A stretch of 64,000 nt of DNA from Desulfitobacterium metallireducens DSM 15288 (GTDB lineage Bacteria; Bacillota; Desulfitobacteriia; Desulfitobacteriales; Desulfitobacteriaceae). Both the position numbers and the translations under genes were made by a program. The stretch's first letter is position 1. Each line of letters starts with the position of its first letter. The notes beneath the pieces are model-generated. The model ran no database searches, had not been told where the DNA came from, and saw only the letters and a program-made list of their open reading frames with translations. The stretch lies in contig NZ_CP007032.1 in the NCBI RefSeq assembly GCF_000231405.2, forward strand, positions 2,232,001 through 2,296,000, read 5' to 3'. Below, piece by piece: positions 12,435 through 56,752 of the stretch.

Positions 12435-12479
12435 AAAATGAGTCAAATCCCTCCTTACTAGAGGGATTCGACTCATTTT
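12435..12479 (-). terminator. Long hairpin between histidine kinase and MFS gene
   Basis: AAAATGAGTC (12435-12444) plus AATCCCTC (12446-12453) pair with GAGGGATT (12461-12468) plus GACTCATTTT (12470-12479), interrupted only by one mismatched base per side. T-rich sequence follows on the minus strand. It lies 50 bp after the kinase stop. Copy A has lost the outer part of this stem. Confidence 0.75.
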
Positions 12480-12516
12480 CTTATTATCCTCCCCATTTTA
12501 TCCAAAGTATTCCAAT
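12445..12516. repeat. 72-bp direct repeat, copy B (after histidine kinase)
   Basis: Partner of 11048-11119 with four mismatches. Here the inner hairpin is extended by an outer stem into a full terminator. Confidence 0.85.
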
Positions 12517-12529
12517 AACCAAATCAAGC

Positions 12530-14383
12530 TTAATTTTCGTGATCTATCGGAATGGAAAAGACAAACTCAGTTCCCTTTCCCACTTTGCTATCCACTTTGA
12601 TGTTCCCCCCATGGGCGTCAACAATCTGCTTAACAATAGACAGACCCAAACCCATCCCGCCATCTTTTCGTGAGCGTGCTTTATCTACACGGTAAAATTG
12701 ATCAAAGATATGTTTGATCGCCTGCTCTGGAATCCCCTCTCCTTCATCTCGAATGACAAATTGTATCTTGTCTTTTTGCTGACTTGCATCGACTTGGATT
12801 TTCTTTCGCTGCGGCGTATGGCGGAAAGCATTATCAAGCAAATTAATAAACACTTGGAGCAAACGATCCCGATCTGCAAGGATTTCACCTTGCATTGACA
12901 TGATTTCTAAATCAACTTCTTTTTCCTCAGCTAAACCCTGATAACGGTGTTTTAGCTCTTCCATAAATTCCTTAAGATCAATTGATCGAAGTTCTAAGGT
13001 TTTCCACCGTTCCAATCGATTCATCTCTTGTAACTCATTGACGAGTTTAGCCAAACGACGTGCCTCATCAAGTACGAATTCGATTTGCTCAGCTTCTTCT
13101 TCTTGAGGAATAACACCATCTTGAATCGCTTCGAGATATCCTTGAATAAGATGAAGAGGGGTTCTCAATTCATGAGTTACACTCGCCATGAAATCACGTC
13201 GTTCCTTCTCTGCCCTTAAAGATGCTGTAATATCTCGAAGCACAGCGACATAACCCTCAACCCCATTCTGCGCAGAAGTCGAAGCTAAAGCCACCTGTAA
13301 AACCTGGGTATCAAGAGTGAGATTTTTAACTTTTTCCGGTATTATAGGTTGAAGTAACATCTGCTGGAGGAATTTAAGAATTTGCAGTTTGCGGCCTGAT
13401 ACTTTACCCTCACTTTCCATCCAAAGCACCTTAGCGGGCTCATTGGTATAAAGAATCTCGCCTCCTGCATTGAGCATAATTACAGCATCGCTCATACCTT
13501 CAACTATTCCCTCCAGCAGGTTTCTCTCCTGAGATAACCAGTCCATATGGTTCTGTAAGCTTTCACCCATCGAATTAAGTGCACCAGCCAATTCACCAAT
13601 TTCGTCACGGCCATTAACCCCTGTAATTTTTTGAAAGTCACCTTCAGCCATACGACTAGCCGCCCTTTGCATGATAAGCAAAGGGCGAGTGACAAAACGT
13701 GCAAGAAAGAGACTCACAAGAGTTGCTAAAAACACTGCAAATAGTGAAGAGTAAAAAATAATCTTACGAAAAGTAGAGATACTTTCTTGCACCGGAGCAG
13801 GAGAACTTCCTAGCAAAAGGACCGCTTCTGCCGGGTCCCCTATAGGTGTTGCAGCGACCAACATGGCCTGCCCACTATTATTATTCGGCAAAGCCTCGAT
13901 AGTCAGTGTTTTCCCTGATAATACTTGTTGCAGATTTTCCTGAGAAAAATAATAATTGGGGAGAAGAGGATGAACCCACCATCCAGTGGTTCCTGACCCC
14001 CCTGATCCATTTAATCCCATTCCACCGTTCCAAGGAACGATGTTGCTAATCATTCCTCCAGCCGATATATTTCCTCTAATCGTAATTAGCTCGCCGGTGC
14101 GATTTAGAAGTACCAATTGATTTCCCGTCTTAAGCTTCGTATTTTGCACTGTCGTCAATCTTTGCGCCCAACTCGATTGGCTCGTCAACTGATTCGAAAT
14201 ATCAACTACATCATTCCCTAGCTCACCCAACTTCTGATTTACGTAGAAGTCTCCAAATAGCCAAGTAATCGCGATTCCTAGGCCACCTAATACGCCTAAA
14301 ATGAGAATCATCATAGCAGCCCATAATTTTATTGCAATACTCCAGTTTCCCTTTCTGGGCTTCATTTTTAATTTCCTTCCCAA
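12530..14383 (-). CDS. Membrane sensor histidine kinase (HAMP-PAS-HisKA-HATPase)
   Basis: Senses an external or envelope signal and phosphorylates the adjacent response regulator. 617 residues: helix at about 17-40, extracytoplasmic domain rich in Gly/Ser/Asn to ~195, second helix at ~203-225, HAMP, PAS (NLLEGIVEGMSDAVIMLN), H-box SVTHELRTPLHLIQGYLE, N-box NLLDNAFRHTP, then DEGEGIPEQ and GGMGLGLSIVKQIV. The architecture matches ResE/PhoR/WalK kinases. The response regulator ends 3 bp upstream. The stimulus cannot be deduced; the nearby nuo operon makes a respiratory role tempting but unproven. Confidence 0.92.
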   Translation of the reverse strand: MGRKLKMKPRKGNWSIAIKLWAAMMILILGVLGGLGIAITWLFGDFYVNQKLGELGNDVVDISNQLTSQSSWAQRLTTVQNTKLKTGNQLVLLNRTGELITIRGNISAGGMISNIVPWNGGMGLNGSGGSGTTGWWVHPLLPNYYFSQENLQQVLSGKTLTIEALPNNNSGQAMLVAATPIGDPAEAVLLLGSSPAPVQESISTFRKIIFYSSLFAVFLATLVSLFLARFVTRPLLIMQRAASRMAEGDFQKITGVNGRDEIGELAGALNSMGESLQNHMDWLSQERNLLEGIVEGMSDAVIMLNAGGEILYTNEPAKVLWMESEGKVSGRKLQILKFLQQMLLQPIIPEKVKNLTLDTQVLQVALASTSAQNGVEGYVAVLRDITASLRAEKERRDFMASVTHELRTPLHLIQGYLEAIQDGVIPQEEEAEQIEFVLDEARRLAKLVNELQEMNRLERWKTLELRSIDLKEFMEELKHRYQGLAEEKEVDLEIMSMQGEILADRDRLLQVFINLLDNAFRHTPQRKKIQVDASQQKDKIQFVIRDEGEGIPEQAIKHIFDQFYRVDKARSRKDGGMGLGLSIVKQIVDAHGGNIKVDSKVGKGTEFVFSIPIDHEN

Positions 14384-44101: not shown

Positions 44102-44324
44102 TCTCATCCTCCTCCCAACCCAATCTATCCTATATGTAAATATTCGGGATTAGAAGGGATTAGACAGCATTAACTAATTTTCAGCATTATTTTAGCCCAC
44201 TGTCAAACGAAATTTCCCAAGTATCTTACCTTGGCGGATTATGCTTAAATTTTAAAGTAATAGGACAAAAGTACGTTCCAATATAAATGTTATAGCGACG
44301 TCCAAAATTAAGGAGCAGTATAAC

Positions 44325-46616
44325 ATGTTTTATATAATAGGAAAAAGTGTATTTAGAAAAGAAGCCTTGGATAAAGTTACAGGCGCAGCTAAATATACAG
44401 GTGATTTTAATATTACCGGACTATTGTATGCCTGCATTGTTGCAAGTCCTTATGCACATGCAGAAATTAAACAAATTCAAACCTCTGAAGCATGGAAAGT
44501 ACCTGGCGTACATGCTATCGTGTCTGGAAAACAGTGCCCTATCCTAACAGGTTCTCCTATTTTAGACAGACCACCTATTGCTTTAGATAAAGTACGATAT
44601 CACGGAGAGCCGGTAGCATTAATCGTAGCTGATAGTGAACAATCCACAAGAAAAGCAGCCGCTTTAATAAAGGTAGAATACATTCCTCTGGATGTTGTAA
44701 ATTCCCCTAATGCTGCTATTAAGAGTAATGCTCCACTCATTCATGAAAATCTAAAACATTATAAGCTCTTAGAAGAGGCTTATCCGGAACCCGGAACAAA
44801 CATTGCCAATCGCACAAAAATCCGAAAAGGCGATCTAAAAAAAGGCTGGGCTAAAAGTCAAATTATTATTGAATCAAATATTTCATTCCCACAATCTGAC
44901 CATGTAGCAATGGAAACCAGGTGCTCTATCGCTCAAATCAAGCCTGATGGAGAAATCATCATTTATACCTCTACCCAAACCCCTTTTTCGGTAAAAAAAT
45001 TAATCAGTTTATATTTTAATATTGAGCCGCAAAAAGTTACAGTGAAAACGCCTCTCGTGGGCGGGGCTTTTGGTGGCAAAACAAGTGTGCAATTAGAGAT
45101 TTTAGCCTACATTGCTTCAAAATCTGTAGGTGGTAAAGCTGTTAAAATGTTAAACTCCCGGGAAGAAGACATGATCACCTCCCCGGTTCATATAGGACTA
45201 GATGCAAAAGTTAAACTTGGATGTACTACAGAGGGGAAAATTGCAGCAGCAGAAATCACCCATTTATTCGACGGTGGTGCTTATTCAGACAGAGGAGCAA
45301 TTATAAGCAAGGCTGCAGCAGTAGATTGCACCGGTCCCTATAATATTGACAACTTATGGTGTGATTCATTATGCCTATATACAAACCATCCCAATGCTGT
45401 GGCTTTCAGGGGTTTTGGGCACCTTGAGCTTACCTTTGCTATAGAAAGAGCAATGGACATTTTAGCTGATCAGTTAAATATGGATCCGATAGAATTAAGA
45501 CTGAAGAACGCCATTATCCCCGGAAATACCACGCCTACCCAAACTTTGCTTAACTCTAGTAATATTGGTAATTTGCCGGCATGCTTAAAAAGATTAAGAG
45601 AACTCATCCATTGGGATGAAGGAAGAAGGATCCAAATCGGAAACAACAAAGTTAGAGCAAAGGGTGTCAGTTGTATTTGGAAAAACTCAAACACACCCAT
45701 TAATGCAGGTGCAGGGGCTATTCTTACCTTTAATCACGATGGAAGCATCAATATCCATACCGGAGCAATTGAAATTGGCCAGGGAACAAAAACAGTACTT
45801 GCTCAAATACTCGCCGAAAGAATGAAAATGGATATCTCTAAGATTCATGTTGACATGGAGGTTGATACAAAAATTGATCCAGATCATTGGAAAACAGCTG
45901 CAAGCAGGACTATTTATCTCGTTGGAGGCGCAGTTTTGGAAGCTGCTGAAGATGCAATGCATCAGCTCAAAACTACGGCCTCTAGAGTTTTAAACATTTC
46001 CACTCAAGATCTGGATGTATCGGAAAGCAGGGTATTTTGGAGGCAAAATCCAAGGGTGGGCCTTGGTTTTGAAAGCATTGGAAGCCAGGTCATCGGACGG
46101 GGACGTTTTGTTATGAAGGGCCTAACCGGTCTAGATCCTGAAACCGGCAGAGGAAATCCAGGTCCTGATTGGGCAGTAGGCGCACAAGGGGTTGAAGTAG
46201 AACTGGACTTGAAAGAATATACCTATAAAATTTTGAAAGCTGTATCGGTCATAGATGCTGGAAAAGTGCTGAATCCGGAAGCTGCCAAAGGGCAGATTAC
46301 AGGTGGTATGAACCTGGGCCTTAGCTTTTCAAGCAGAGAATATTTTATTTTTAATGATAATGGAATTATTCAAAACCCACAATTACGTACATACAAGATA
46401 TTACACTTTGGAGAAAACCCTGAATATATTGTGGATTTTATAGAAACGCCTCAGATGGATGCTCCCTATGGTGCCCGGGGAATTGGTGAACATGGTGTTA
46501 TTGGAATGCCGGCGGCACTGGCAAACAGCCTATCTGCTGCCGTACAGGTACCGCTTAATTTTATGCCCCTCTTACCGGAATTCATTTGGAAAACAACAAG
46601 GGGGGTTAAGAAGTGA
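44325..46616 (+). CDS. Xanthine dehydrogenase-family molybdopterin-binding subunit
   Basis: Large catalytic subunit of a molybdenum hydroxylase, 763 residues. Signatures: PLVGGAFGGKTSVQLE, AFRGFGHLELTFAIERAMD, TGAIEIGQGTKTVLAQI (GQG loop binding the cofactor) and GARGIGEHGVIGMPAALANS with the catalytic Glu. AAGGAG lies nine bases upstream of the ATG. Operon order large-medium-small. The CO dehydrogenase VAYRCSFR motif is absent, so an aldehyde, purine or N-heterocycle hydroxylase is more likely; substrate unknown. No molybdenum-cofactor maturation gene (such as xdhC) is in the window. Confidence 0.91.
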   Translation: MFYIIGKSVFRKEALDKVTGAAKYTGDFNITGLLYACIVASPYAHAEIKQIQTSEAWKVPGVHAIVSGKQCPILTGSPILDRPPIALDKVRYHGEPVALIVADSEQSTRKAAALIKVEYIPLDVVNSPNAAIKSNAPLIHENLKHYKLLEEAYPEPGTNIANRTKIRKGDLKKGWAKSQIIIESNISFPQSDHVAMETRCSIAQIKPDGEIIIYTSTQTPFSVKKLISLYFNIEPQKVTVKTPLVGGAFGGKTSVQLEILAYIASKSVGGKAVKMLNSREEDMITSPVHIGLDAKVKLGCTTEGKIAAAEITHLFDGGAYSDRGAIISKAAAVDCTGPYNIDNLWCDSLCLYTNHPNAVAFRGFGHLELTFAIERAMDILADQLNMDPIELRLKNAIIPGNTTPTQTLLNSSNIGNLPACLKRLRELIHWDEGRRIQIGNNKVRAKGVSCIWKNSNTPINAGAGAILTFNHDGSINIHTGAIEIGQGTKTVLAQILAERMKMDISKIHVDMEVDTKIDPDHWKTAASRTIYLVGGAVLEAAEDAMHQLKTTASRVLNISTQDLDVSESRVFWRQNPRVGLGFESIGSQVIGRGRFVMKGLTGLDPETGRGNPGPDWAVGAQGVEVELDLKEYTYKILKAVSVIDAGKVLNPEAAKGQITGGMNLGLSFSSREYFIFNDNGIIQNPQLRTYKILHFGENPEYIVDFIETPQMDAPYGARGIGEHGVIGMPAALANSLSAAVQVPLNFMPLLPEFIWKTTRGVKK

Positions 46617-47446
46617 TACCATTTGACTTTGAATATTATAAACCCTCTTCAATGATGGAAGCAGTAGATACATTTAGATTATTGAATACCCAGGGAAAAG
46701 AGCCTTTATATTATGGCGGCGGAACAGAAATTATCACCATGGCAAGAAGATCCCATATATTCACCGAAGCTGTCATTGATATAAAAGGAATACCTGAATG
46801 TAATACCTTTAATGTGCAAAATGGAAAACTTGTCATAGGCGCCTCAATAACGCTTACACAGCTTCAAGAATCCAAAATTTTTCCCCTTCTAGGAAGAGCA
46901 GCCAGAAAGGTTGCAGATCATACGGTCCGCAATAAATTAACTGTAGGCGGCAATATTTGCGGTAAAATAACGTTTAGAGAAGCTGTTCTGCCCTTTTTGC
47001 TTTCAGACAGCACGGTGGTTTTAGCGGGACAAAAAGGAATAAGAAATGTCCCTATTAGTCAAGTGTTTAATAAAACATTAAATCTGGAAAAAGGAGAGTT
47101 TTTAGTCCAGCTTGTAACAGATATAGGCTACAGTCAATTTCCTTTTATGAGTATAAAAAAGACGAAGCAGGAAAAATCTGCTTATCCGCTTATTTCTATC
47201 GATTCATTAAAAAAGGACGGACAAACCCGGTTTGCTTTTAGCGGTGTCTGTCCTTTTCCCTTTAGATCATCCACTATAGAGCAAGTTTTAAACGATAAGA
47301 ATATTCCTTTGGAACTCAGAATAAATAAGGCACTATCCATGCTTCCGGCTCCTATCAATAACAATATTGAAGCATCCGCTGAATATAGAGAATTCGTCCT
47401 TAAAAATACATTATCAGATACTATTAAGGTGCTTGAAAGGAGTTAA
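46613..47446 (+). CDS. Molybdenum hydroxylase FAD-binding subunit
   Basis: Medium subunit, 277 residues, passing electrons from the [2Fe-2S] subunit to NAD or another acceptor. N-terminal FAD-binding motif YYGGGTEIITMARR, followed by KLVIGASITLTQL and TVRNKLTVGGNICGKITFREA (PCMH-type FAD fold), then the CO dehydrogenase flavoprotein C-terminal domain. GTG start with AGGGGGG seven bases upstream; it overlaps the large-subunit stop by four bases. Shorter than XdhB of E. coli but in the normal range. Confidence 0.9.
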   Translation: MIPFDFEYYKPSSMMEAVDTFRLLNTQGKEPLYYGGGTEIITMARRSHIFTEAVIDIKGIPECNTFNVQNGKLVIGASITLTQLQESKIFPLLGRAARKVADHTVRNKLTVGGNICGKITFREAVLPFLLSDSTVVLAGQKGIRNVPISQVFNKTLNLEKGEFLVQLVTDIGYSQFPFMSIKKTKQEKSAYPLISIDSLKKDGQTRFAFSGVCPFPFRSSTIEQVLNDKNIPLELRINKALSMLPAPINNNIEASAEYREFVLKNTLSDTIKVLERS

Positions 47447-47447
47447 T

Positions 47448-48641
47448 ATGCTGGTATCCCACAACGAAAATAAATTCCCTCTGGAAATTGACGTTAATGG
47501 TGAAATAAAAAACATTGTGGCAAGACCTGCAGATACTCTGCTTTACGTACTGCGTGATTCGCTTGGTCTTACAGGTGCCAAACCCGGTTGTGAAAATGGA
47601 GATTGTGGAGCCTGTACAGTTCTTGTAGACGGATGGCCTGTTAAATCATGTCTAATGCTCGCCGTTGAAGCAATAGGGCACAAGATAACGACAATAGAAG
47701 GGCTTAAAGATACTCCTATTCAAAAGTCTTTTATAGAAAATTGGGCTTTTCAATGCGGCTATTGTACATCTGGATTTATCATGAATTGTTATGCATTATC
47801 GAAAATCCACCCGGATGCAAATGACGAAGTCATTCAAGAGTGGTTACAATCTAATCTTTGTAGATGTACCAGCTACGAAGAGATAAAAAAAGCTGTAAAA
47901 TCGGTGTTAAAATCCAATCATCATCATTCTTCTCTTGGAATAAATATTAAAGAGAATTGGAGGGATATGAAAATGAATTACACCATCCAACCCGGTGATT
48001 CGTTCTATATAATTGCGCAAAAATATAATATACCGCTAAATGAACTGATAAGAGCCAATCCTCAGATTGATGACCCCGAGCACATTTTTCCCGGGCAAAT
48101 AATTAACATACCCCTAAGCAGTTGTTCGCAATTACCTAATCCATATCGTCTGCCGGATCCTTACCCTGAAAGACGTGTTGCCGTTAAAAATCCCTACTAT
48201 GCTCAACTCATATTAGACGATTATGCCGGAAAAGTGAGCGAGACAACAGCCATCATGCAGTATATTCATCACCATATGGAGATGGAATCAATCCCTTCCT
48301 GGCAGGAAGTATCCGACCTTGAAGAAGGGATTAGCATTGTTGAGATGCTTCATCTGGAAATGTTGGGGGAAATAATTATCCACTTAGGCGCATCACCCTG
48401 CTATTACGACAGCAGACAACAGCCCTGGACCCCTCAATATATCGCCTATCACAACTTCGACCCATGTGCACAACTACGTGCGGATATCCAATCCGAACAC
48501 GATGCCATCCACCAGTATCAGGCCCATATTCAAGTGATTCAGGATCCCTTTATTCAGGCCCTTCTAGCCCGGATTATTAAGGATGAGGAGTTTCATATCA
48601 AGCTCTTTTCCGAAAAACTGGCGAAATTCTGCGGATCATAG
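47448..48641 (+). CDS. Fusion: molybdenum hydroxylase [2Fe-2S] subunit + LysM + di-iron ferritin-like domain
   Basis: 397 residues in one open frame. Residues 1-160 are a complete small subunit: GCENGDCGACTVLVDG for the plant-type cluster, QCGYCTSGF and LCRCTSYEEI for the second. Residues ~176-220 are a LysM repeat (YTIQPGDSFYIIAQKYNIP ... IINIPL). Residues ~245-397 form a ferritin-like bundle with full di-iron ligands: Glu in SETTAIMQY, ExxH in VEMLHLEM, Glu in SEHDAIHQY, ExxH in DEEFHIK. An internal ATG (47967 or 47973) follows GGAGGG, so the LysM-ferritin part may also be made separately. The frame is open over the junction, suggesting loss of a stop codon. Start 47448 is five bases after GGAG. 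Confidence 0.88.
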   Translation: MLVSHNENKFPLEIDVNGEIKNIVARPADTLLYVLRDSLGLTGAKPGCENGDCGACTVLVDGWPVKSCLMLAVEAIGHKITTIEGLKDTPIQKSFIENWAFQCGYCTSGFIMNCYALSKIHPDANDEVIQEWLQSNLCRCTSYEEIKKAVKSVLKSNHHHSSLGINIKENWRDMKMNYTIQPGDSFYIIAQKYNIPLNELIRANPQIDDPEHIFPGQIINIPLSSCSQLPNPYRLPDPYPERRVAVKNPYYAQLILDDYAGKVSETTAIMQYIHHHMEMESIPSWQEVSDLEEGISIVEMLHLEMLGEIIIHLGASPCYYDSRQQPWTPQYIAYHNFDPCAQLRADIQSEHDAIHQYQAHIQVIQDPFIQALLARIIKDEEFHIKLFSEKLAKFCGS

Positions 48642-49101
48642 TAACAACAACCCAGTTTACTAATATGGCTATAAGTACACCAATTATGGTATCTCTGACT
48701 CGATCTATAGTATATCCCCCATTATTTTCGACTGCCAAAATCAGGAGAGCACTTATTGATGCATGATTTGCAACCTCATTGCTTAAAGCCAACAGCTTGG
48801 CCATTCCCATCCCTAATAAAACAACAAGTCCAATACTCCAAGCGTTGCTTCCTATATAAGGAGCAATAAAACCAGTCGCGAATGCGCCTAAAAACGTACC
48901 AATTATTCTCCGGTACCCGTGCAGAATGGATTCATCGAGCGTTGCATGTAAACATATTATCACTGAAAGAGGGGCTAGAAAAGGATGACTCGACCCGGCA
49001 ATCTTAGATAATTCCCAAGCTAAAGATGCACCGATAACATTTTGGATAAGGGTAATAACGGTAATATTTTTTTCCTTCGAATTATTGATACTAGTTGACA
49101 T
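48598..49101 (-). CDS. ArAE/FUSC-like membrane protein (aromatic acid exporter family, N-terminal domain)
   Basis: 167 residues with about five helices, resembling the membrane half of the ArAE_1/FUSC family: ASLAWELSKIAGSSHPFLAPLSVIICLHATLDESI, then GYRRIIGTFLGAFATGFIAP and VRDTIIGVLIAILVNWVV. Family members export aromatic acids or are uncharacterised. The usual cytoplasmic C-terminal domain is missing, as in some short forms. Convergent with the fusion gene; the two coding ends overlap by 44 bp. Confidence 0.75.
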   Translation of the reverse strand: MSTSINNSKEKNITVITLIQNVIGASLAWELSKIAGSSHPFLAPLSVIICLHATLDESILHGYRRIIGTFLGAFATGFIAPYIGSNAWSIGLVVLLGMGMAKLLALSNEVANHASISALLILAVENNGGYTIDRVRDTIIGVLIAILVNWVVVTMIRRISPVFRKRA

Positions 49102-49499
49102 ATATTCTATTCTTCCTTCGAATTAGATTTTATTGTTCTATATCTTTCTTAAGGTGGATTACGGGATTAGTTTATATTTTACGACTTAGCCAACTTATAC
49201 TCTCAAAATATTGTAATGAACTACTCTGAATATTCAAAACTTGTCTGGCGGCCGCGCGAAGATACTTTCTTCGCACGAATTAAGCCTTCTTGCAACTAAG
49301 TTGTGATAGTAAAAAAAAGCCCAGTAGCTGGACTTCAAAATCGAATTATGAATTGGTGAAGCGGCCTGACACTGCTGGAGCGAGAACCCAACTTTAAGGG
49401 GCCTCGCTTCATAATTGCATGAAGTAAATTATTATCCCGTAATCTTACTAAAATATTTGTGTTTGGATATTCTTTATAAATAAATGAATAACCATGAAA
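49102..49499. other. Gene-free stretch with several hairpins
   Basis: No coding frame of note. Three foldable segments: GCGAAGA/TCTTCGC near 49256-49275, a terminator at 49311-49335, and a larger hairpin 49358-49410 (GAAGCG-GCC against GGC-CT-CGCTTC). It may hold a small RNA read on the minus strand, or only the 3' end of the PH-domain transcript. Confidence 0.4.
49311..49335 (-). terminator. Intrinsic terminator, minus strand
   Basis: AAGCCCAG (49317-49324) pairs with CTGGACTT (49328-49335) with one G-U pair; eight T follow on the minus strand (49318-49311). It lies 165 bp after the PH-domain gene. Confidence 0.7.
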
Positions 49500-52554: not shown

Positions 52555-53721
52555 TTAAATATATGCAGTTTCATAAGTAATCGGTGGAGATTTGTCCAGG
52601 CACGTAAAGCGTTTAGGTTTATCCGAACCGCAGATAGGACATTTGGATAGATCGGCTCCGGTAATCTTTTGGATAAGTTGAAGGGTAGAGGCTTTTTCCT
52701 TAGTTAAAAGAGGAGTATGGGTAAGTTGCTTACAAAGCTTTAGCTTTGTTGTCTTATTACGATTACCAAGCAAGCCGTAGTGTCTAATTTTCATAAATCC
52801 ATCCGGTAAAATATGAATAAGAAATCTACGGATAAACTCGTTGGCCGAGAGTGTCATCAATTTCTGCTTACTACCATCCTTGTAATCCCGCCATTTGAAG
52901 GTAACTGTATCTTTTTCAAGGTTTACGATACGCTTATTGGAAAGAGCCACTCGGTGAGTGTATCGTCCCAGGTATTCAACAACACAAACAGCATTTCTGA
53001 ATGGTGGTTTACAGTAAACAATCCACTCTTTGCTATATAAAGAAGATAGCAGCTCTTCGAAGTCTTTTTTATTAGAAAGATAGGTTTGACTGCCGTGAAA
53101 TTCTAACTCGTTTTGGTAGTAGCGCTGTTTAAGGAAATATAGAAATTTTCCTTTAAACTTTCGAGAGAGAACTTTAACCGGAATAAAGAATTTCTTTCGG
53201 CTGTTAACCCATTTGCCGATAGAAGATAACCCGCCGCCAGGGACAATGCAGTGGATATGGTGATGGTGCATGAGGTTCTGTCCCCAGGTATGAAGAACCG
53301 ATGTAAAACCAATTTTGGCACCAAGATATTTTTTGTCGGAAGCCAATTCAATAAGCGTTTCAGCAACGGTCTTAAATAAAAGAGTATAGATAACTTTTTG
53401 GTTTTGGTAAGTCATTGAATTCAGCGTATCGGGAATTGTGAATACTACATGAAAGTATCCAACATCGAGGAGATTGTATTTTTGGTTTTCGATCCAGCGT
53501 TCTTTAGCAAGAGCTTGGCATTTAGGGCAGTGCCTGTTGCGGCAAGAGTTATAGGAAATTCGAGTATGACCGCAATCATCACAAACCTCCTTGTGACCGC
53601 CTAACTGTGAGGTTCTGCATTTTTGCATCGCGGACATCGCTTTATGTTGAACAAGAGTGAGCTTGTGGTGGGTGCGATAGATATTGCCGTATTTGCGAAA
53701 TATATCTTGAACCTCAATCAT
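52555..53721 (-). CDS. IS91-family HUH (Y2) transposase
   Basis: Single-strand nicking transposase for rolling-circle movement. About 388 residues: N-terminal zinc-binding domain (CRTSQLGGHKEVCDDCGHTR, NSCRNRHCPKC), HUH metal motif HHHHIHCIVPGGGLS and the Tyr-containing block EYLGRYTHRVALSNKRI, then a C-terminal CxxC (CPICGSDKPKRFTC). I start at ATG 53721, overlapping the integrase stop; the longer frame from 53769 overlaps that gene further. Appears intact. Confidence 0.9.
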   Translation of the reverse strand: MIEVQDIFRKYGNIYRTHHKLTLVQHKAMSAMQKCRTSQLGGHKEVCDDCGHTRISYNSCRNRHCPKCQALAKERWIENQKYNLLDVGYFHVVFTIPDTLNSMTYQNQKVIYTLLFKTVAETLIELASDKKYLGAKIGFTSVLHTWGQNLMHHHHIHCIVPGGGLSSIGKWVNSRKKFFIPVKVLSRKFKGKFLYFLKQRYYQNELEFHGSQTYLSNKKDFEELLSSLYSKEWIVYCKPPFRNAVCVVEYLGRYTHRVALSNKRIVNLEKDTVTFKWRDYKDGSKQKLMTLSANEFIRRFLIHILPDGFMKIRHYGLLGNRNKTTKLKLCKQLTHTPLLTKEKASTLQLIQKITGADLSKCPICGSDKPKRFTCLDKSPPITYETAYI

Positions 53722-54265
53722 TGACCTTATCCAATTGAGCCAGCTGATCAGGAGGACTCTTAACGCCAAGTGATTCTATCTTAAGCAAGTGTAAATAGAA
53801 ACAGGTTGATGCAATGTCGGAGTGTCCGAGTAATTGCTTAATATGGAATACACTTGTATCGGATTCTAAAAGATGAGTCGCAAAACTGTGGCGCATGGTG
53901 TGAACGGTTACATTCTTGGTAATTTTAGCTTTACTAACGTATTTATGAAATAGATTGCTAACAGCTCTAGCTGTCATATGAGTTCCGGTATTATTTCTAC
54001 TGTAAAAGAGCCATTCTTTAGGGCGGTAAGCTTTCCAATACGTTCTGAGTATGTCGAGATTAGCTTGCGAAAGCAGAGCATATCGATCTTTACTGCCTTT
54101 AGCATTGCGAATGAACAATTGCATCTTATTGCTGTCAATATCAGAAACTTTAAGGGCAGCCACTTCACTGATGCGAAGTCCTGCACCATAAAGAGTCATA
54201 AGAATACATTTATCCCTTAAGTTATCACAGGCATCCAAAAGGGTTTGAATTTCCTCTCTAGTAAG
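53714..54265 (-). pseudogene. Tyrosine recombinase, C-terminal catalytic part (split by IS21)
   Basis: 184 codons continuing the N-terminal half at 56919-57230. It holds all catalytic residues: Arg in GAGLRISEVAALKVSDID, Lys in KGSKDRYA, HxxR in HTMRHSFATHLLE, His in LLGHSDIAST and the nucleophile Tyr in CFYLHLLK. Removing IS21 and one copy of the 5-bp duplication rejoins the halves in frame as KFPDI-LTREEIQTLLDA, giving about 287-300 residues. As it stands the fragment could be translated from ATG 54238 but lacks the core-binding domain. Confidence 0.9.
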
Positions 54266-54278
54266 GATGTTGAATATT

Positions 54279-54361
54279 ACGGTTTTAGAGAGCCACTATT
54301 CCAGATGTCACTGAGCCATCTCTCTGGAAAAAATGATCCACTGCTCCGGACAGAGAGCCAC
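54279..54361. repeat. IS21 left-end internal repeats
   Basis: Four degenerate units, seen on the minus strand as RTGGCTC, 7-8 bases, then a CCGGA-like block. Such multiple end repeats are the IstA binding sites in IS21 elements. Confidence 0.75.
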
Positions 54362-54379
54362 CCGAATTTCCTTGAGTTT

Positions 54380-54440
54380 GTGGAGAGTGTGGGCAAGTTC
54401 TTTTGAGAAAGACCCAAAAGGGCTTGTCCTCACTCTCCAC
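54380..54440 (-). terminator. Long hairpin after istB
   Basis: GTGGAGAGTG (54380-54389) pairs with CACTCTCCAC (54431-54440), and the stem continues with GGGCAAG/CTTGTCC-like and CTTTTG/CAAAAG segments. Located between the istB stop and the element end; probable transcription stop or insulation. No long U-run. Confidence 0.6.
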
Positions 54441-54467
54441 AGCTCTCTAAACTAGAGTAAGGTTTTG

Positions 54468-55211
54468 TTATTCCTGTATTCCTTTGCGTTTACGCATGGA
54501 ATCTTGGCCATCGATCAAGATTGTATAGGAATCATGAACAATTCTGTCCAAGATGGCATCAGCTAAAGTATCCTCACCAATTTTGCCATGCCATCCGGCG
54601 GGTGAAAATTGAGAACTGAAAATGGTTGATCCCTTTTTGTGTCTCGCTTCCACGATTTCTAAAAGATCACGTGCTTCACTATTACCCAGTGGAACGAGTA
54701 ACCATTCATCTAGAATGAGCAGACTGACTTGCTTGTATTGCTTCATTACTTTTTTGTAGATACCTTCTCCTCGTGCTACTGCCAGTTCATTCAGTAAATC
54801 GGGAAGCCGAATATACTTCACTGTATAGAAGTTGCGGCAGGCGGCAATACCGAAGGCACAGCTGAGATAGGGTTTTCCTGCGCCGGAAGCACCAAGGATA
54901 ATGATGTTGTGTTTTTCTTGGATGTAAGTACATGTTGATAACCGAGCGATTTGTGCTTTGTCCAATTTCCTATCCGCATGATATTCAATATCCTCAATGC
55001 ACGCTTGATTAAAGTAAAGATCGGCTTTGCGGATGAGGCGAGTGAGTTTATTGTTCTTACGCCTTGCCCATTCCGTGTCCACCATGAGCCCGAATCGTTC
55101 TTCAAAATTTAATGCGGTATAGGATGGATCTTGAAGTTGTTGGCGAAATGATTCTGCCATAGCAGTGAGTCGCATTTCATTAAGCTTGCCGATTGTTGTT
55201 TCGTTAACCAT
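54468..55211 (-). CDS. istB: IS21 helper ATPase IstB, with altered Walker A
   Basis: AAA+ ATPase that selects target DNA and activates IstA. 247 residues. N-terminal helical part (MRLTAMAESFRQQLQDP), Walker A read as LGASGAGKPYLSCAFG, Walker B LLILDEWLLVPL, sensor FSSQFSPAGWHGKIGE. The usual GKT is GKP here: the Thr/Ser that coordinates Mg is replaced by Pro, so ATP hydrolysis may be impaired and the copy may be immobile by itself. Start overlaps the istA stop. Confidence 0.93.
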   Translation of the reverse strand: MVNETTIGKLNEMRLTAMAESFRQQLQDPSYTALNFEERFGLMVDTEWARRKNNKLTRLIRKADLYFNQACIEDIEYHADRKLDKAQIARLSTCTYIQEKHNIIILGASGAGKPYLSCAFGIAACRNFYTVKYIRLPDLLNELAVARGEGIYKKVMKQYKQVSLLILDEWLLVPLGNSEARDLLEIVEARHKKGSTIFSSQFSPAGWHGKIGEDTLADAILDRIVHDSYTILIDGQDSMRKRKGIQE

Positions 55212-56752
55212 TATGAATTCCTCCTGTAGTAGTCTGCGCCTCGGGTAAAACCAAAGCTGTTAGAGGATTTCTCAGGGTTAACCGGCTCTTCCTTGACGAT
55301 TTTGTCTTGTCCCGTTTTGATGATGGTCTGAATGCTTTTGTAGCTGGGGTTGGGTGTGTAGGAGAGTGCTTTTTCACAGGCTGCTTCTAAGCGACTAACC
55401 GAGTATTTATCTGCTAGTTTGAGTAAACCCATACAGCTTTTGTAGCCTTGTTGTTCTATACGGTGAGAAGACAAGATTGCCTTCACTACCACGGCGGTAT
55501 GTTTACCAACGTTTTCTGCCCAAAATACGAAGCGTTCGCCATTCCATGCTGTATACTTTTGATGGTCTTCCGGCATATGTTCCGTAACTGTGCTGTATTG
55601 TCCGGGACGACCATGCAAGCGAGGATGGGAACATATCCGGTGATTATTAAAAAACACTTCAACTACATAACGGGTGATTCGGACATCGACTTTGTGTTTG
55701 ATGTATTCATAAGGGACGCTGTAATGCATTTTCTCTACAGTAACATGATAGTTAAATTGGACGGTGGCAACCTTCCAAACTGCTAATTCATAGGGTACTG
55801 CGGGAAGAGGTAGTAACAGGGCTTTCTCTTCTTCTCGAAATACGCTCTGACGGCTTCCCGTTTTCTTCTGAAACGGTTTACTGTTGAAGGCCTCCAGTTT
55901 CTCTCGTATCGCCAGGTTAAGTTCTGGAAGAGAAAAGAATTGTTGACGACGGAGAGCCGCAACGATCCAGGTGGAAATGGTGCCAACCGTCCCTTCAACA
56001 CTGGGTTTATCCTTGGGCTTTCTTACCCGAGCAGGAATAACAGCGGTCCCATAGTGCTCGGCCATTTCGTGATAAGACTTGTTGATTATAGGCGTATACC
56101 ATGAGGAGCGTTCCACACCGGTCTTCAGATTATCCGGTACAAGAATCCGTGTAACGCCTCCAAAATACTTGTAGGCATTGACATGAGCTGTAATCCAGGA
56201 TTCTTGGCCTTGATTCAGAAAAGCTTCCACATAAGCATATTGACTGTACGGTAGAACAGCTACAAATATGTAGGCAGCAATGCTCTCTCCTGTATCCGTA
56301 TCCACGAGGCTTGCCGTTTGGCCTGCCCAGTCGACCTCCATTTGTTCGCCAGGCTTTCGTCCGATATGCATGGTCGCTTTGGTCTTCGCCACATACTGCT
56401 GATAATGGTAGCAAAACTGAGTATACATGAGGGGAATCTCATTGCTGAGTCTGCAGGATTCGCAGTATTCATTCCAAAGCAGACTGAGCGTTACTCCGCT
56501 TTTCGCCATTTCTTTATGAATGTACTCATTATCCGGGCGCTTTCGGGTAGGAGGTAATGTGGATTCAGGATAGAAAAGCTTGTGCAATTCACCATTCGTC
56601 CGATCTGGGTTTAACGGCCAAGTAATATTAAGCTCGTTGGATCGTTTCACCACCTTGGCAACAGTGTTGCGTGAGCATTCGCAGCTCACTGCGATGCTGC
56701 GTTGACTGATTCCTTGGCTAATTAGCCGAAGAATCTCTCGATAATTGGTCAT
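55211..56752 (-). CDS. istA: IS21 transposase IstA
   Basis: DDE transposase, 513 residues. N-terminal HTH (ISQGISQRSIAVSCECSRNTVAKVVKR), catalytic core with Asp in MEVDWAGQTA, Asp in ILVPDNLKTGV and Glu in KPKDKPSVEGTVG, then an SH3-like barrel and C-terminal tail. GGAGG precedes the ATG. Reading frame intact. Encoded upstream of istB in the typical overlapping pair. Confidence 0.95.
   Translation of the reverse strand: MTNYREILRLISQGISQRSIAVSCECSRNTVAKVVKRSNELNITWPLNPDRTNGELHKLFYPESTLPPTRKRPDNEYIHKEMAKSGVTLSLLWNEYCESCRLSNEIPLMYTQFCYHYQQYVAKTKATMHIGRKPGEQMEVDWAGQTASLVDTDTGESIAAYIFVAVLPYSQYAYVEAFLNQGQESWITAHVNAYKYFGGVTRILVPDNLKTGVERSSWYTPIINKSYHEMAEHYGTAVIPARVRKPKDKPSVEGTVGTISTWIVAALRRQQFFSLPELNLAIREKLEAFNSKPFQKKTGSRQSVFREEEKALLLPLPAVPYELAVWKVATVQFNYHVTVEKMHYSVPYEYIKHKVDVRITRYVVEVFFNNHRICSHPRLHGRPGQYSTVTEHMPEDHQKYTAWNGERFVFWAENVGKHTAVVVKAILSSHRIEQQGYKSCMGLLKLADKYSVSRLEAACEKALSYTPNPSYKSIQTIIKTGQDKIVKEEPVNPEKSSNSFGFTRGADYYRRNS

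Follow-up and report, generated by a model that had tools for sequence, protein, structure and literature searches.

How did the [2Fe-2S] subunit of a molybdenum hydroxylase come to share one reading frame with LysM and ferritin-like domains, and what might the joined protein do? The gene that raises this question occupies positions 47448–48641 on the plus strand of the window, the 64,000-nucleotide stretch of Desulfitobacterium metallireducens DSM 15288 DNA analysed here, and is read from an ATG to a TAG as 397 residues (424 if an upstream TTG is the start). From an initial annotation of this DNA we retain the one-frame fusion, the functional-looking ends and the internal start, and revise the mechanism of joining and the presumed separateness of the LysM and ferritin-like domains. 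We consider it rather probable, taking the elements together, that a hydroxylase cassette was inserted into the 5′ leader sequence ahead of a LysM-ferritin gene, that the locus now gives two products, that the joined unit has passed between genera, and that it has a role at the spore cortex or coat.

Architecture of the fused protein and its operon

Pfam assigns Fer2 to residues 15–63, Fer2_2 to 82–151, LysM to 178–222, Ferritin to 265–393 and Mn_catalase to 311–391 (its best stretch), all five matches exceeding their own gathering scores; open reading frame and Pfam thus agree with the first description of three domains in one uninterrupted frame of 397 codons. The [2Fe-2S] subunit part (residues 1–154, 47448–47909, Fer2 and Fer2_2) carries two clusters and has chain C of 4zoh as its best solved match. 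A linker (47910–47972) leads into the LysM domain (47979–48113; 52.2 bits against a gathering score of 20.9), which matches the LysM of SafA (7r1l) with an E-value of 2.9e-11, and the protein ends in a ferritin-like di-metal domain (residues 250–397, 48195–48638; Ferritin 35.7 bits against 24.5, together with Mn_catalase). In a 36-row alignment of sequences hand-chosen from fetched loci, the eight cluster cysteines (48, 53, 56, 68, 103, 106, 138 and 140, forming two [2Fe-2S] motifs) are all kept in 17 of 17 Fer2 rows, and the ligands E265, E299, H302, E350, E380 and H383, in the pattern E, ExxH, E, ExxH, in 22 of 22 ferritin rows, which upholds the early reading of both sets as complete. A predicted structure of the fused protein (mean pLDDT 41) was too poor to use, and PADLOC returned no match.

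The fused gene is the third of an operon in the order Mo-FAD-FeS. A ribosome-binding site, AAGGAG (44310–44315), precedes the gene for an XdhA-like molybdopterin-binding subunit of 763 residues (44325–46616; Pfam MoCoBD_1, MoCoBD_2 and Ald_Xan_dh_C), which is followed by that for a FAD-binding subunit of 277 residues (46613–47446; FAD_binding_5). With these partners the fused protein can be placed among the molybdenum hydroxylase [2Fe-2S] subunits of the xanthine oxidase family (XdhC, CoxS, the gamma subunit of 4-hydroxybenzoyl-CoA reductase), with which it shares both cluster motifs, the length of its first 154 residues and the Mo-FAD-FeS order. It differs from them in its C-terminal LysM-ferritin tail, the unfused family relatives and the second copy in the same genome being only 152–186 residues long. 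That second copy is a 152-residue [2Fe-2S] gene in an ordinary hydroxylase operon (L003). XdhC/CoxI maturation genes are present in two of the three genomes that carry the fused gene and were not found in the third, G005. Near 46080, the window's molybdenum subunit lacks, in frame, 12 residues that follow GFESI in the other two fused-gene genomes; this deletion in the cofactor-binding domain may alter activity. On the minus strand, a FUSC or aromatic acid exporter-like gene (48598–49101) is convergent with the fused gene, whose 3′ end it overlaps; G017 has a similar gene beside its fused operon, and G011 has one directly upstream of its unfused operon.

The tail itself reaches the cut-off of none of the narrower families against which it was compared. 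The ferritin-like domain weakly matches bacterioferritins and manganese catalase-like proteins. It resembles the manganese catalases, including the CotJC-type coat proteins, in family match, ligand pattern and a Mn_catalase score above gathering, but falls far short of the manganese catalase equivalog NF052557 (20.2 against a cut-off of 350 bits). Scores for encapsulin-associated ferritin cargo are likewise below their cut-offs (38–39 against 90 for NF058679; about 27 against 125 for TIGR04535), as is that for the SafA/ExsA model TIGR02899 (56.6 against 67.85 bits). No solved structure resembles the LysM domain more closely than that of SafA, whereas the rest of SafA is unrelated.

Recurrence of the fusion and its relatives

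Of 82 genomes of the class searched with the whole protein, 3 carry the full-length fusion, and they belong to three genera: the window genome (G000), G017 (94% identity, 446-residue open frame) and G005 (88%, 416-residue open frame). Searches of 45 family genomes and of 73 order genomes had the identical outcome. In an even sample of 398 phylum genomes, queried with the LysM-ferritin half at E-values up to 1e-30, G000 and G017 gave the only open frames of more than 300 residues among the matches listed, G005 being absent from the matches of that sample. A pattern scan of contigs from 84,980 species, one genome per species, confirmed three loci: a fused gene (L039), a free LysM-ferritin gene (L040) and an unfused [2Fe-2S] subunit from Anaerolineales (L041). 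Among viral contigs, three stretches matched a pattern and none was a relative; plasmids gave 1072 matching records, but in none did the match extend over 80% of the query.

This recurrence decides whether the fusion could have been made by a frameshift or by misassembly. Such an artefact would fit the rarity of the fusion in the class, yet three separate assemblies share the frame, with two different linker lengths, and the window genome is a single contig of 3,176,073 bases. Sequencing or assembly error is therefore ruled out as the origin of the fusion, and we give an artefact of either kind practically no chance. The junction frame adds little: although the 60-nt junction is open solely in the frame of the fused gene, a shuffle control gives a 15% chance for one frame, so that openness is weak evidence and recurrence strong evidence.

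Both halves of the protein also occur apart. The nearest unfused [2Fe-2S] subunits, those of G011 (65% identity, 154 residues) and G033 (59%, 186 residues), are each the third gene of an ordinary three-gene operon. LysM-ferritin proteins without the enzyme part are encoded by a second copy in G005 and by G012 (64%), G043 (55%), G113 (53%) and G092 (47%). The free G005 copy is the nearest of these, at 87–88% identity to the fused copies. The fused and free copies of G005, a Desulfitobacteriaceae metagenome-assembled genome, are the L039 and L040 of the pattern scan; they lie on two contigs, C115 and C185, of similar coverage (4.47 and 4.60) and are likely to reside in the same cell, with the caveat that a genome of this type can mix strains. 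A more distant LysM-ferritin paralogue (about 32–37%) is found in many family genomes. Its representative in the window genome, at G000:C1:2667634-2668257 (L002), is 35% identical. Neither G000 nor G017 contains a close free-standing copy.

LysM and ferritin-like domains are thus an established pair, present in free proteins of several families, and the new join is the one with the enzyme subunit; the opening claim that all three domains are normally separate holds for that join alone. Free LysM-ferritin proteins of Firmicutes (about 222–260 residues) share with the fused protein the same two domains and the ligands, and in several cases a strong GGAGGG site; they differ in not being joined to an enzyme. 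Nor do close relatives always keep two separate genes, as the two closest are fused and the more distant ones separate. The literature searched contained no report combining a LysM domain, xanthine dehydrogenase and ferritin.

Origin of the join

The free G005 copy bears on how the join arose. When the window was compared by blastn with the reverse strand of the free G005 locus (L045), two regions matched: 47921–48640 aligned with 12523–13241 (89%), and a short upstream block, 44256–44302, with 12478–12524 (89%, E-value 1.45e-10). On L045 the two matches overlap by 2 nt at their join. The free copy (contig G005:C185) therefore reads block, leader, gene, whereas the window reads block, three enzyme genes (Mo, FAD and FeS), leader, gene: in the former the block abuts the LysM-ferritin leader on its upstream side, and in the latter it stands just ahead of the molybdenum-subunit gene. 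The intervening Mo-FAD-[2Fe-2S] cassette (about 44303–47920) is the putative insert, and from about 47921 onward the linker is what was once the 5′ leader of LysM-ferritin, now translated. The fused copies read this leader in frame as linker; its counterpart in the free copy is out of that frame, owing to a 1-nt difference near the start and to a TAA. The initial annotation had pointed to loss of a stop codon; such a loss between neighbouring genes is ruled out as the origin by the whole three-gene cassette that separates block from leader. Just downstream of the free copy, at 2042–2470 of L045, lies a small ORF that resembles an IS200-type transposase.

Of ten stretches tested, four contain the block: the window, G017 (47 of 47 positions), the fused G005 locus (93.6%) and the free G005 locus (90.7% over 43 bp). 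Neither G011 nor G033 has it at its unfused operon, it is absent around the free genes of G012, G043 and G113, and the match in G092 (L115) extends over only 13 bp and was left out of the count. Since these three more distant free genes lack it, the block cannot be proven to be the ancestral LysM-ferritin promoter. No recognisable promoter was detected within it, inspection by eye gave nothing convincing for a sporulation sigma factor, and sigma-70-like sites in the region number 11, below the shuffle expectation of 16.1.

We propose that a complete hydroxylase cassette, comprising the molybdenum and FAD subunits and a [2Fe-2S] subunit devoid of its stop codon, landed in the 5′ leader ahead of a LysM-ferritin gene. 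It would thereby have come to lie behind that gene's upstream block, putatively using the block as a promoter, and translation of the [2Fe-2S] subunit would have continued across the old leader (HHHSSLGINIKENWRD) into LysM-ferritin. On this account the locus is a well-preserved example of a multi-domain protein born in one step, by an operon set into the leader of another gene; the leader would have become the linker and the old start site would have been retained. The survival of a free copy in which block adjoins leader allows the event to be followed nucleotide by nucleotide.

The reverse direction, in which the fused operon came first and the free G005 copy is what remained once the three enzyme genes were lost, has to be weighed against this account, and the trees do not settle the matter. 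By neighbour joining the three fused copies form one clade in 73% of 300 bootstraps, and no branch is longer than that of the free copy, which speaks against deletion. FastTree, rooted with distant outgroups, has the fused G005 copy branching off first (local support 0.875 for nucleotides and 0.912 for amino acids), and on that root the free copy would therefore be a deletion derivative. Shared-derived sites number 7 for a fused clade against 5 for a first-branching fused G005 copy among nucleotides, and 1 against 3 among residues. The 2-nt overlap where block meets leader and the finding of the block with no other locus family are also in keeping with deletion. However, a deletion would have had to excise exactly three genes while sparing the upstream block, the leader and the ribosome-binding site, and free-standing LysM-ferritin is the common state in more distant genomes. 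We regard deletion as fairly unlikely and clearly favour insertion, because it accounts both for the stop that the enzyme subunit has lost and for the intact leader, and because free genes are common in distant genomes.

Products, location and spread of the joined unit

Two proteins are predicted from the fused gene. An internal Shine-Dalgarno sequence, GGAGGG (47959–47964), lies 8 nt before the ATG at 47973, and the same hexamer precedes the free LysM-ferritin genes of G005, G012 and G113. Both ATGs originally listed behind it, 47967 and 47973, are present, but the first occurs in the window alone, whereas the second is kept in all fused copies and has the better spacing (8 nt). Because the arrangement GGAGGG, 8 nt, ATG survives in 3 of 3 fused copies, a second product of 222 residues (47973–48641), as the initial annotation had allowed, is likely; full-length free homologues of it exist in G005, G012, G043, G113 and G092. 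The locus would then supply a hydroxylase whose [2Fe-2S] subunit always bears the LysM-ferritin tail and, through the retained ribosome-binding site, free LysM-ferritin as well. A precedent is offered by SafA, which is reported to yield a second product, C30, by internal translation (PMC6282716).

Among the fused copies, pN/pS is 0.22–0.33 for the Fer2 part, 0.18–0.32 for the ferritin part and 0.40–0.96 for LysM (0.96 in one pair); the range for the linker, 0.23–0.97, comes from about 9 synonymous sites and says little. The Fer2 and ferritin halves are under purifying selection and both ends look functional, as first supposed. The linker in the window is 24 nt (8 residues) shorter than in G017 and G005, with the frame kept.

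The long form might nonetheless be a tolerated by-product: the operon would have been captured for expression alone, the tail would be harmless, and LysM-ferritin would work mainly as the separate 222-residue protein. The strong ribosome-binding site and its spacing, retained in all three fused copies, fit this explanation, and, with no close free copy in G000 or G017, the fused gene must supply LysM-ferritin there. The C-terminus of Fer2_2 is, moreover, a natural fusion point. Xanthine dehydrogenase small subunits run on from it into a FAD domain, and TIGR02963, a model of the xanthine dehydrogenase small-subunit type, matches both the N-terminal part of the fused protein and the FAD subunit. 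Against a mere by-product, the frame has been held across the 24-nt difference in all three copies and no stop has arisen in the linker. We judge such tolerance quite possible, if somewhat short of even chances.

As to where the products act, a possible tether to peptidoglycan or to a spore coat was first suggested. LysM domains bind peptidoglycan, and the LysM domain could in principle tie the hydroxylase to the vegetative cell wall. By a crude hydropathy measure, however, neither the 397-residue nor the 222-residue product has a signal-like hydrophobic N-terminus, and maturation of molybdenum- and FAD-binding subunits normally takes place in the cytoplasm. The missing signal-like stretch makes a vegetative wall anchor unlikely, indeed very unlikely in our estimate, and delivery to the spore from the mother-cell cytoplasm more plausible. 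The spore half of the suggestion fares better: SpoIVA is present in all three fused-gene genomes, SafA provides the best LysM match, and a location in the spore cortex or coat is plausible from these sequence features. According to the same SafA report, the localisation signal of that protein contains its LysM (PMC6282716).

At the spore, the di-metal domain would deal with oxidants near the enzyme. In G113 the free LysM-ferritin gene lies (L114, 2982–6148) between ORFs resembling a flavodiiron protein and a rubrerythrin, which we take to be an oxygen-defence neighbourhood, and in G092 it adjoins an ORF resembling a sporulation sigma factor. From these neighbours and from a report on CotJC we infer that LysM-ferritin handles oxidants or metal at the spore. 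That report describes CotJC as a coat manganese catalase in Moorella spores, with a tentative role in oxidative stress (PMC8745062). The fullest version of the idea holds that a metabolic operon captured the regulatory region and targeting domain of a sporulation gene, giving a hydroxylase made during sporulation and anchored in the spore cortex or coat, in which the di-metal centre beside the [2Fe-2S] clusters forms an oxidant or electron sink, and that this unit then spread between genera; we hold it to be a speculative and, as a whole, improbable scenario. Were the spore location true, a molybdenum hydroxylase would sit on a spore structure, an arrangement unreported in the literature searched: no molybdenum hydroxylase report with Desulfosporosinus was found, and nothing evidently relevant on molybdenum hydroxylases and spores in Firmicutes.

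Sequence identities point to horizontal transfer of the joined unit between genera. The molybdenum subunit is 94% identical to that of G017 and 91% to that of G005; for NuoL the corresponding values are 81% (G017) and 85% (G012), and for the LysM-ferritin paralogue 67.5% (G017) and 62.9% (G005). G012 has no match to the molybdenum subunit at E-values up to 1e-100, and the paralogue is the only comparator for G005, whose NuoL orthologue was not found (best 35%). Because the operon is 91–94% identical between genera and the comparator proteins only 63–81%, ordinary vertical inheritance of the operon is unlikely. Transfer is further suggested by the limits of DNA similarity: of 16 kb compared, similarity to G017 spans 44246–49256 only, and similarity to G005 ends at 44248 and 48640. 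No vehicle was identified, but a cluster of mobile elements downstream of the operon, at 52555–56752, is in keeping with transfer; it comprises a transposase of the IS91 type, a phage integrase-like ORF and an IS21 pair.
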